From: Phycisphaerae bacterium
GTDB taxonomy: Bacteria > Planctomycetota > Phycisphaerae > SM23-33
Assembly: GCA_018335035.1 (NCBI GenBank)
Contig: JAGXKT010000021.1
Coordinates: 3,118-39,686, forward strand
Direction of reading: 5' to 3'
Length of the DNA: 36,569 nt
A program made the position numbers and the translations under genes. This document shows, in pieces, positions 14,684 to 36,569 of the stretch (the stretch's first letter is position 1; each line of letters opens with the position of its first letter). Below the pieces are notes generated by a model. It was not told the origin of the DNA and did no database searches. It saw nothing but the letters and a program-made list of their open reading frames with translations.

Positions 14684-14945
14684 CCGATTGACCGAGTGAC
14701 CAATCGACGAGTCAACCCGGCTTCGTCAGACGACGGCTACGCCGTGGCAAGCGAGTCAACGGGTCAACGAATGAACGCGTCGGCGAGGCATGGTTGCTCG
14801 CTTCGCCCTGCGGGCGAATCTCGCAGCCCATGGCACCCGCCGAGAACCAATGGACTGATTGACTAGTTGACCAGTTGACCAATTGACCCATTGACCGATT
14901 GACCAATCGACGAGTCAACGAGTTCACGAATCAACGGGTCAACGG
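14684..14945. repeat. Octamer repeat array between tatD and the serpin gene
   Basis: This stretch holds degenerate 8-bp units built on TTGACC/GTCAAC. One block (14684-14780) contains AATCGACGAGTCAAC and related units. A second (14845-14945) runs as TTGACC-type units and then flips to GAGTCAAC-type units near 14906, so the two halves are inverted with respect to each other and could fold into an imperfect hairpin. Bases 14707-14760 recur inverted at 29900-29953 with four differences, and 14841-14906 recur inverted at 36328-36393 with about seven. No coding frame is convincing. Confidence 0.8.
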
Positions 14946-14976
14946 ATTATCGGAACTCACGGCCGCCCTGAGCGTC

Positions 14977-15022: not shown

Positions 15023-16333
15023 ATGAACCGCCGAATCACCGCCGCCGCATGCATTCTGCTGCTGTTGGCCGCCTTGACGCCCGCCAGTGAGCCGCAGACG
15101 CCCCCTGCCGAGACCGAATCGCCAGCCGACAAGGCGCCCGACGCCGCCGGCGCCGACGCCGTCGTGGCGGCCGGGAATGCCTTTGCGATCGACACGTACG
15201 CCCGCCTGCGCGGCGAGGCGGAGGGCAATCTGTTCTTCTCGCCGACGAGCATCCACACCGCCCTGGCGATGACGTACGCCGGCGCCCGCGGCACCACGGC
15301 CGAGCAGATGGAGACAGCGCTGCATCTGCCCGAGGATGCGGACGACATCCACGCCGGCTTCGCCAAGCTGATCGCCGACCTCAACGACCCGGCCACGATC
15401 CACATCGCCAGGCGGGAGGAGGACGGGAAGGTAATGTGGCAGAAGGTTCCCGCCTACCAACTCCATGTCGCCAACGCCCTCTGGCCGCAGGCGGGATACC
15501 CGTTCAAGGAGGCCTTCACCGGCCTGGTGCGCACGCAGTACGCCGCCGCGCTGGAGCAACTGGATTACAAGGCCCCCGCCAAGGCCCGCACGCGGATCAA
15601 CGCCTGGGTCGAGGACAAAACGAACGAGAAGATCAAGAACCTGATCCCCGCCGGCGTGCTGGACCCGCTGACGCGCCTCGTGTTGACCAACGCGGTGTAC
15701 TTCAAGAGCAACTGGTCGGAGGACTTCTCAAAGCACGCCACGAAGGACGGCGACTTCCACGTCTCGCCCGAGAAGACCGTCACGGCGCCGCTGATGCACC
15801 AGACCGAATCGTTCGGCTACGCCGAGACGGACGCGCTGCAAGTCCTCTCGCTGCCCTACAAGGCGAATGAGCTGGACATGGTCGTCCTGCTACCGCGGGA
15901 GGTTGACGGCCTGGCCGCACTGGAGGACGCCCTGACCGCCGAAAAACTGGCCGGGTGGCTCGAGGCGCTGCAGCGGCAACGCGTCCGCGTGACGTTGCCC
16001 AAGTGGGAGTTTACAAGCAAGTTCCGCCTGAAGAGCGTACTCAGCGCCATGGGCATGCCGGACGCCTTCGACCCCGAGAAGGCCGACTTTTCCGGCATGA
16101 CGGACGCGGAGAAACTGTTCATCTCGGCCGTGCTGCACAAGGCCTTCGTGGCCGTGGACGAGGAAGGCACCGAGGCGGCGGCCGCCACGGCCGTGGTGAT
16201 GGACACCAGAGCCATGCCGCCGGCGACCGAGCCGAAGGTCTTCACGGCCGATCATCCGTTCGTGTTCTGCATCCGCCACCGCCCCACCGGCGCGATCCTG
16301 TTCATGGGCCGGGTGGCGAACCCGGCCAAATGA
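15023..16333 (+). CDS. Secreted serpin (serine protease inhibitor), P1 Arg
   Basis: Serpins trap serine (or cysteine) proteases by cleavage of a reactive loop. The 436-residue protein has a signal peptide (residues 1-22), a low-complexity linker (about 23-45) and a full serpin domain (NLFFSPTSIHTALAMTYAGARG, LVLTNAVYFKSNW, HPFVFCIRHRPTGAILFMGRV). The hinge EEGTEAAAATA (380-390) has the small residues needed for loop insertion, so it should be inhibitory. Counting from P15 Gly and the P3'-P4' prolines puts P1 at Arg396 and P1' at Ala397, predicting trypsin-like targets. AAGGAG precedes the ATG by eight bases. No lipobox is seen, so the protein is periplasmic or released. Octamer repeats flank the gene on both sides. 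Confidence 0.93.
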   Translation: MNRRITAAACILLLLAALTPASEPQTPPAETESPADKAPDAAGADAVVAAGNAFAIDTYARLRGEAEGNLFFSPTSIHTALAMTYAGARGTTAEQMETALHLPEDADDIHAGFAKLIADLNDPATIHIARREEDGKVMWQKVPAYQLHVANALWPQAGYPFKEAFTGLVRTQYAAALEQLDYKAPAKARTRINAWVEDKTNEKIKNLIPAGVLDPLTRLVLTNAVYFKSNWSEDFSKHATKDGDFHVSPEKTVTAPLMHQTESFGYAETDALQVLSLPYKANELDMVVLLPREVDGLAALEDALTAEKLAGWLEALQRQRVRVTLPKWEFTSKFRLKSVLSAMGMPDAFDPEKADFSGMTDAEKLFISAVLHKAFVAVDEEGTEAAAATAVVMDTRAMPPATEPKVFTADHPFVFCIRHRPTGAILFMGRVANPAK

Positions 16334-16378: not shown

Positions 16379-16488
16379 TCGGCGCGTCAGCCATTCATTC
16401 AGTCGACCAGTCGGATTGGTCTCGCATGTCAGGCGCCCGCCGCGCCCTGCTGGCGATCGACCAGGCACGTCATCGACGAGTCAACGAA
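16379..16488. repeat. Degenerate octamer repeat block after the serpin gene
   Basis: The gap between the serpin and yraN contains weaker copies of the octamer family: CATTCATTCAGTCGACCAGTCG near 16392 and CGACGAGTCAACGAATCACC near 16474. The yraN stop codon lies inside the latter, so the repeat abuts the end of the gene. Nothing else is seen in this gap. Confidence 0.5.
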
Positions 16489-16890
16489 TCACCGGAACGC
16501 GTCGGGAAGGTGGCGGACCGACGGCTCGGCGTCCGGGCGGAGCACGACGGCGACGATATCGAAGCGGAGGTTGAGCCCCTCGGTCGCGACGCGCGAGAGG
16601 CGGTAGTAGTCGGCGACCTTCCGGATGCGGCGTTGCTTGTCTGGGTTGACGGCCGCCTCGGGGGACGTGTAGGCGTCGGACGTACGGGTCTTGACCTCGA
16701 CGAAGCACAGCGTCTCGGCGCCGGTTTCGCGCCGCGTGGAACGGTCCAGCGCGATCAGGTCCACCTCGCCGCGCGGACAGCGGTAGTTGGTCGCGAGAAT
16801 CTTGAGCCCCCGGCGCTTGAGGTGCCCGCGCGCGAGGCGTTCGCCCCGCCGGCCGATATCGTCACGCGTTCGCCTGCCGAACGGCCACAC
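16489..16890 (-). CDS. yraN: YraN/UPF0102 family endonuclease-like protein
   Basis: The 133-residue protein is a compact restriction-endonuclease-fold protein of the UPF0102 family. It shows the family order: GRRGERLARGHLKRRG, then NYRCPRGEVDLIALD with the putative active-site E-V-D, then FVEVKTRT with the E-x-K, and the PDKQRRIRKVADYYL-like helix. Members occur widely beside trmD/rplS and are thought to act in DNA processing, but their substrate is not established. The start is GTG at 16890, supported by GGGAGG six bases upstream. It is the last gene of the rpsP-trmD-rplS run, 26 bp after rplS. Its stop codon overlaps an octamer repeat. Confidence 0.9.
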   Translation of the reverse strand: MWPFGRRTRDDIGRRGERLARGHLKRRGLKILATNYRCPRGEVDLIALDRSTRRETGAETLCFVEVKTRTSDAYTSPEAAVNPDKQRRIRKVADYYRLSRVATEGLNLRFDIVAVVLRPDAEPSVRHLPDAFR

Positions 16891-29633: not shown

Positions 29634-29899
29634 GAAAAAAATGCCGCTTCCTCACATCGCGTCGAAGGCACGGATTGCCATACAAATCGCAAACTCATCA
29701 CCGTATCGCGCCGCCCGAGGTCTGTAGCCACGACATCTTGGGGCCACGTTCGGGGAAACTTTTTTCGGATCCAAGAAGACGGCGGCTAAACAGCGCCGTC
29801 GCGGCGATCCGGCATGCTCATCGCGCCACAGCGCACCACTATCCAATCGTCCATCTCACGCCGACGCGATAAGGGAAACTGAGGGTTTCGTCGCGCCCC

Positions 29900-29953
29900 G
29901 TTGACTCGCCTGCCGCGGCGTAGTCGTCGTCTGACGAAGCCGGGTTGATTCGT
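29900..29953. repeat. Inverted copy of the 14707-14760 repeat
   Basis: These 54 bases match the reverse complement of 14707-14760 with four differences, all transitions. Both copies begin GTTGACTCGC when read in the same sense and include CGTCGTCTGACGAAGCCGGG. The copy lies in the non-coding gap upstream of mraZ. Confidence 0.8.
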
Positions 29954-30193
29954 GAACTCGTAGCGCGTCTGTCGGTCGATGGGTAACGAAACGCGCCAGC
30001 GCCTGACACGCGAGACTCAAGTGACCGATTGGGCGATCGACCCACTGACCCTTCGACGAAACGAGCCATATGACCACAGCCCGTAAGGCCGCCGGCAAAA
30101 ACGTCAAGCGACTCCTTCCGCCGGCACGGGGCACACAACGCCGCGTCTCGGCCCTGCATCCCGGCAGAACGCAACGGTCGACCGTGAGAACGG

Positions 30194-36252: not shown

Positions 36253-36393
36253 TGATTCGTTGATCCGATCACTCGTTGACTCGTTCATTCGTTCACTCGT
36301 TGATTCGTTGACTCGGCACGAGGTCGTTTGGTCAATCGGTCAACTGGTCAACTGGTCAATTGGTCAATTGGTCAATCAGTCAATTGGTTCTCG
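36253..36393. repeat. Bipartite octamer repeat array at the right edge
   Basis: Bases 36253-36316 are eight units of consensus [G/C]A[T/C]TCGTT at an 8-bp period. After a 12-base break, 36328-36393 are units of GGTCAA[T/C]T at the same period, ending AGTCAATTGGTTCTCG. The two halves are inverted relative to each other (TTGACTC against GGTCAA), so the element could form an imperfect hairpin. The right half (36328-36393) recurs as the reverse complement of 14841-14906 at about 90% identity. Confidence 0.8.
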
Positions 36394-36569
36394 CCCGTCG
36401 GGCGCCGGCCGCGTGTCGTTACGCCCGACCAGACGTGGTGTCGCGAATCCAGCCCGATAAGCGGGGCCAACTCTTCAGCCGCGGCCTGGCGTATCGTGTC
36501 CCACTCGCCGGGCCGCAGCAAAATTGCCTCGATCACGACGACCTGCCCCAGCGTGGGAAACACGTAATT
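36372..36569 (-). CDS. 3' end of an unidentified gene, cut by the window edge
   Basis: On the minus strand an open frame enters from the right edge and ends at a TGA inside the octamer array. The visible C-terminus includes FPTLGQVVVIEAILLRPGEW and then TIRQAAAEELAPLIGL. Codon use is GC-rich at third positions, like neighbours, and no stop breaks it. I do not recognise the family. The last seven residues (GENQLTD) are encoded by the repeat, so the array supplies the stop codon. Confidence 0.4.
   Translation of the reverse strand, partial: NYVFPTLGQVVVIEAILLRPGEWDTIRQAAAEELAPLIGLDSRHHVWSGVTTRGRRPTGENQLTD

Follow-up and report, generated by a model that had tools for sequence, protein, structure and literature searches.

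Convergent octamer arrays and palindromic modules in the intergenic regions of a Phycisphaerae genome

Octamer arrays and modules in the window

The window analysed here, a 36,569-nucleotide stretch of contig JAGXKT010000021.1, is part of the 2.74-Mb draft genome of a Phycisphaerae bacterium and carries elements built from degenerate 8-nt words, together with a full-length serpin gene (15023–16333; PF00079, 411 bits) that adjoins the first array (Table 1). A sequence-only reading of this DNA had described period-8 arrays at 14684–14945 and 36253–36393, and these are real: TRF, which reports period-8/16/24 arrays at 14846–14944 and 36253–36388, concurs with a trained, two-orientation, period-8 HMM, and the first array extends to 14954. 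The HMM scored 14752–14781 at 15.7 bits, 14846–14954 at 96 bits, and 36253–36388 at 117 bits; when it was run on 400 kb of shuffled or reversed sequence, no score exceeded 8 bits. The phasing of TTGAC/GTCAA over four units gave 20 of 20 matches, versus 13–15 in Markov controls.

The internal inversion and the kinship proposed for the two strong arrays were also recovered. The HMM places one flip in unit orientation within each, and 14841–14906 differs from the reverse complement of 36328–36393 at 7 of 66 bases. Two palindromic modules lie between the octamer blocks of the first array (14684–14954). A further copy, absent from the earlier description, was found at about 29898–30060; it includes a 38-bp module that is 97% identical to the consensus of the module also present at 14712–14751, and its neighbours are what we take, from their sequence, to be mraZ and a sulfatase gene. 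The weak array reported at 16379–16488 fares less simply: its HMM score is below threshold, but it is a decayed member of the family, because the array-end module TCTCGCATGTCAGGCGCCCGCCGCGC is present there (E 6e-7).

Table 1. Parts of the repeat elements in the window
Feature	Position	Strand	Basis
Degenerate octamer arm (GATTGACCGAGTGACCAATCGACGAGTC...)	14684..14711		Sequence; 2-mismatch pattern match
H2 hairpin module (CTTGCCACGGCGTAGCCGTCGTCTGACGAAGCCGGGTTGA), 6 genome copies	14712..14751	-	Module comparison
T-type octamer array (CGAGTCAA units)	14752..14781	-	HMM, 15.7 bits
REP-like hairpin H1 of the A/T subfamily, homologous to the RAYT-gene-flanking repeats on contig C58	14787..14849	-	
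C-type octamer array (TTGACCAR units)	14846..14905	+	TRF, HMM, end alignment
T-type octamer array, opposite in orientation to C array	14906..14954	-	HMM
Decayed copy: degenerate octamers and H4 end module at 16420–16445	16379..16490		Sequence, module match
Extra copy: octamer words, H2 module (29911–29948), degenerate C-type words	29898..30060		
T-type octamer array (TTGAYTCG units)	36253..36315	+	TRF, HMM
Linker GGCACGAGGTCGTTTGGTCAATCGGTCAA, common to C8 and C73 copies	36315..36343	+	Module comparison
C-type octamer array (TTGACCAR units)	36328..36388	-	TRF, HMM, end alignment
H4 end module (TGGTTCTCG and CGGGCGCC palindrome)	36385..36413	+	Module comparison

Units are of a T type (TTGACTCG and TTGATTCG) or a C type (TTGACCAA, TTGACCAG, and TTGACCGA), and the arrays are convergent, a left-hand TTGAC array facing a right-hand GTCAA array. 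A T+/C− layout is found at window position 36253 and in copies C73, C76, and C8, with its reverse complement at window position 14846, while groES–groEL, nusG–rplK, and L039 have a T+/T− layout.

Distribution and copy-to-copy differences

The suggestion that the arrays belong to a dispersed family is borne out by the genome search, which extends it beyond the window copies. With up to two mismatches, TTGACNNNTTGACNNNTTGAC gave 70 matches, spread over about 20 loci, versus 8 for the reversed control, and the family is put at about 20–25 loci on the basis of pattern searches plus a 400-kb sample of the genome; in the 400-kb sample of other sequence, the HMM found only two further arrays. All 37 HMM-scored arrays in the loci examined are intergenic, at a coding fraction of 0.90 (codon-usage gene finder), and one apparent 80-bp overlap between array and gene reflects a mis-set start codon. 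The elements contain no internal ORF. This intergenic location, together with a period that is not a multiple of three, rules out the remnant of a coding gene. At L050:2907–4053, a T array is open on the reverse strand (RVNESTNE-like), and gene callers run the neighbouring ORF through it. Rfam gave no match in the window at the gathering score, searches of the literature for the sequence strings returned none, and the HMM recognised no array among six pattern matches in viral contigs.

The same genome holds a second class of word array: about eight degenerate, intergenic heptamer arrays (of words such as TTCGACG, CATTCGT, and GTAGTCG) were seen in its sample L146–L165, for example at L151:16176–16281, L159:17509–17545, and L165:16212–16263.

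The C arrays at window positions 14841 and 36321 and in C73 and C8 have both ends in common (CGAGAACCAAT ... CGATTGACCA). Relative to the array at 36321, that of C73 is longer by one octamer and that of C8 shorter by four, so that the four loci range over −4, 0, and +1 octamers, always in whole octamers; these differences are between copies in one genome. Variant units in three C arrays are collinear, agreeing at 88–89% at zero offset versus 73–84% when shifted. The T–C linker, H1, and H2 are 95–100% identical across contigs (H4 is less conserved), C8 carries the composite in tandem with a 110-bp period, and the junction between C array and H1 occurs five times, with the same 28 bp in every case, and is absent from the 59 relatives searched. 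These shared linkers, modules, tandem copies, and junctions show composites that are dispersed and, among the genomes searched, specific to this one. Since unique linkers and ends are common to the copies, and differences come in whole octamers, the copies are related to one another, dispersed, and subject to gain and loss of units.

Whole-octamer differences could also be expected if polymerase slippage had expanded a microsatellite independently at every locus, without dispersal, and short words of the same type do occur in many phyla. Such an origin is nonetheless scarcely probable for the family, given the high identity of unique linkers, ends, and hairpin modules and the collinearity of the three C arrays. 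It is disfavoured for the C-type composites and possible for the arrays that are T/T only.

Hairpin potential and the RAYT gene

H1 folds as a hairpin and gave 43 matches in the genome, versus 3 in the control (three mismatches allowed). On contig C58, copies of H1 lie on both sides of the gene for a 184-aa RAYT protein, which scores 96.5 bits against the NCBIfam REP-associated tyrosine transposase model (NF047646, REP_Tyr_transpos; cut-off 80). H1 is therefore a multicopy, palindromic, intergenic repeat and, as REP/BIME elements do, flanks a RAYT gene of its own genome, and the H1 of the octamer composites is homologous to those RAYT-flanking repeats. It is termed REP-like only, outside the two tagged superfamilies, because no recognisable GTAG or CGTC tag was found at its foot by eye in 12 aligned copies. 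A paired change at the foot separates two types: G–C in the RAYT-flanking type and A–T in the octamer-joined type. Octamer words adjoin the A/T type at all six loci (C4, C6, C8, C9, C73, and C76, the words at C6 being recognisable by eye and under the HMM threshold) and the G/C type at none of the six loci read.

At L304:145–330 (G000:C48), a G/C-type H1 hairpin lies directly beside a heptamer array of CCGATTT words, which suggests that octamer arrays are not the only word arrays to which REP-like hairpins are joined. A 428-aa frame at L271:290–1576 (G000:C18) matches an RAYT-like Y1 transposase in its N-terminal part and an IS30/IS481-type transposase in its C-terminal part, and is either a fusion or an in-frame IS insertion.

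RAYT-domain genes are common across the class, being present in 53 of 60 genomes. Octamer-like arrays lie some distance away at two relatives' RAYT loci; in the RAYT-gene flanks scanned, no octamer array of this family was found beside the gene. On that ground a direct linkage between RAYT and array was rejected, and the link to RAYT runs through H1 only, in this genome. Nor does every array contain a REP module: groES–groEL, nusG–rplK, and L039 are among many loci with neither H1 nor H2, and RAYT is thus unable to explain the spread of all loci.

The strong arrays had been credited with hairpin potential, and they do fold better than dinucleotide shuffles (z of −5.4 for 14684–14954 and about −2.8 for 36253), as do the other two-armed elements tested, L039 (−6.2), groES–groEL (−4.3), and, at −1.8, L050; the copy at 29890–30060 and one C8 segment show no such advantage over shuffles. 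Compensatory coevolution of the arms was looked for and is absent: an element's own arms gave no better pairing than arms taken from different elements (−43.0 versus −40.9 and −31.9 versus −31.0 kcal/mol). Hairpin potential therefore follows from the common words, with no pair-by-pair constraint visible, which argues against a finely tuned RNA structure.

It is unlikely that the arrays are kept for the sake of a hairpin in the transcript that would protect operon mRNA or attenuate it. Most complete elements fold more stably than shuffles, the groES–groEL and nusG–rplK spacers are filled by arrays to within 0–2 bp of the genes, and elements lie somewhat closer to gene ends than random (p about 0.016, with gene ends approximate); among known repeats, a hairpin-forming cyanobacterial STRR is described ahead of hoxW and in the hupS–hupL gap (PMC2670836). 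Against such a role stand, besides the indifferent pairing of arms, the flanking genes, which in 24 gaps (one counted twice) are co-directional in 15, convergent in 5, and divergent in 4, with no clear preference of context (80/16/45 co-directional/convergent/divergent among sampled gaps 100 bp or longer). Moreover, among the spacers read, the nusG–rplK array is present in this genome only, and groES–groEL holds octamers in four genomes, with different words.

Word arrays in relatives and known repeat classes

In other relatives, the groES–groEL gap either has no array or holds inverted arrays of heptamers, such as GTAGCCN, or of nonamers; arrays other than octamers were read by eye. Inverted nonamer arrays of the CACAAAGGA / ACGCAGAGG types were seen in the groES–groEL gaps L195, L201, L203, L212, and L213. 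A generic period scan found intergenic 7- to 11-mer arrays in most sampled relatives, and the words and even the unit length vary between related genera. Relative G058 has its own dispersed family of inverted octamers with a different common linker, GGGCCGAATATCATCTGATTGACCAG, and the opposite array order (GTCAA, then TTGAC), an order also seen in G035. Exact TTGACCRR arrays occur in scattered phyla. Of 294 genomes sampled from the phylum, only 8 carry a four-unit TTGAC array, so that this pattern was rejected as a general phylum feature. In relative G008, the intergenic regions L285:320–705 and L245:11856–12184 are packed with successive arrays of periods 7, 8, 10, and 11, including a long 10-mer array (GTTCCCAATC) whose inverse occurs elsewhere.

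In related genera, one intergenic slot can thus be occupied by inverted arrays whose 7-, 8-, or 9-mers are unrelated, a new finding and the least explained point here. Since orthologous gaps such as groES–groEL do so in different genera, it is conceivable, and we advance it tentatively, that some general process in these genomes gives rise, time and again, to convergent intergenic arrays whose short degenerate words are 7, 8, 9, or 10 nt long. The architecture would then arise afresh, and not by inheritance of a single sequence family, through an undescribed mechanism such as hairpin-primed templated synthesis.

Arrays of paired short words are known from several bacteria. Geobacter metallireducens carries multicopy, paired octanucleotide arrays with the consensus TWGTTGAY, and opposite-strand pairs of class 1, GTTGCTYN; the latter are read there as regulator sites and TWGTTGAY is left as miscellaneous (PMC2700814). 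The TTGAYTCG/TTGACCAR units described here share with them the 8-nt length, a nearly identical core (TTGAY), pairing on opposite strands, dispersal, and a genome rich in intergenic repeats, a likeness of word and layout. Units number two to four per strand in Geobacter and 2–9 here, and the text of PMC2700814 consulted reports none of the REP/RAYT modules present here. By analogy with the Geobacter pairs, in which layout is the same and the word nearly so, the arrays might be paired binding sites of a global DNA-binding regulator. We consider this very unlikely: the neighbouring genes (gyrB, carB, infC, nusG, serpin, and csp) have no common function, words and unit lengths differ between related genera, and the context is not promoter-specific.

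GGGAATC-type heptamers of Xanthomonas and Nostoc likewise form short-word arrays, mostly intergenic and often as two close convergent sites; unlike the present family, their word is 7 nt, G-rich, and quadruplex-forming, in near-perfect units without hairpin modules (PMC4692102). Cyanobacterial STRR are also intergenic, hairpin-capable tandem arrays of short words, but of 7-nt units rather than period 8, and no composite with REP is reported in the available part of PMC2670836. The TAACTGA repeats of Beggiatoaceae, too, are short, direct, intergenic, and patchy across phyla; they differ in being 7 nt, almost never inverted, and mostly just upstream of start codons (PMC4679880). With REP/BIME elements and the RAYT-flanking repeats treated in PMC3733652, the family has in common intergenic palindromic mosaics, a flanked RAYT gene (H1), and tandem composites, and it departs from them in its octamer-array arms, the lack of a GTAG/CGTC tag, and the many array loci without a REP module (PMC3733652, PMC2817692).

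The sequence-only reading had held that the family was not explained by CRISPR, an IS, or a simple microsatellite. CRISPR and a perfect microsatellite do not explain it, nor, it seems, does an IS, yet it fits a known kind, the REP/BIME-type interspersed palindromic mosaic combined with STRR-like short-word arrays. CRISPR was rejected since the 8-nt units are contiguous and without spacers, rather than repeats of 20–50 nt with unique spacers of similar length. An IS or MITE with target duplication seems improbable, no duplication being recognised by eye and no ORF lying inside the elements; common ends do exist for the C arrays. Neither a target-site duplication nor a clean empty site was found, the orthologous intergenic regions of relatives being too diverged. 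The family is thus of a kind already reported, as octamer or heptamer pairs, from Geobacter, Xanthomonas, and cyanobacteria, and its mosaic make-up is new.

The family is probably a non-coding, intergenic, BIME-like mosaic with octamer-array arms. Its arms are convergent, degenerate octamer arrays, with (TTGAYTCG)n facing (TTGGTCAA)n or (CGAGTCAA)n, and are linked to the palindromic modules H1, H2, and H4. Slippage on single strands that form hairpins may add and remove units, and H1-bearing composites may be, or may formerly have been, mobilised in trans by the RAYT acting on the H1 hairpin, with plain T/T arrays having presumably spread or arisen without RAYT. The family would be mostly tolerated rather than needed, persisting where no gene is broken, and its effects on operon mRNA, as at groES–groEL and nusG–rplK, would be occasional and incidental. 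This mosaic links two repeat classes usually treated apart, namely STRR-like short-word arrays and RAYT-associated REP/BIME palindromes, and orthologous slots whose arrays differ in word by genus provide material for studying array origin.
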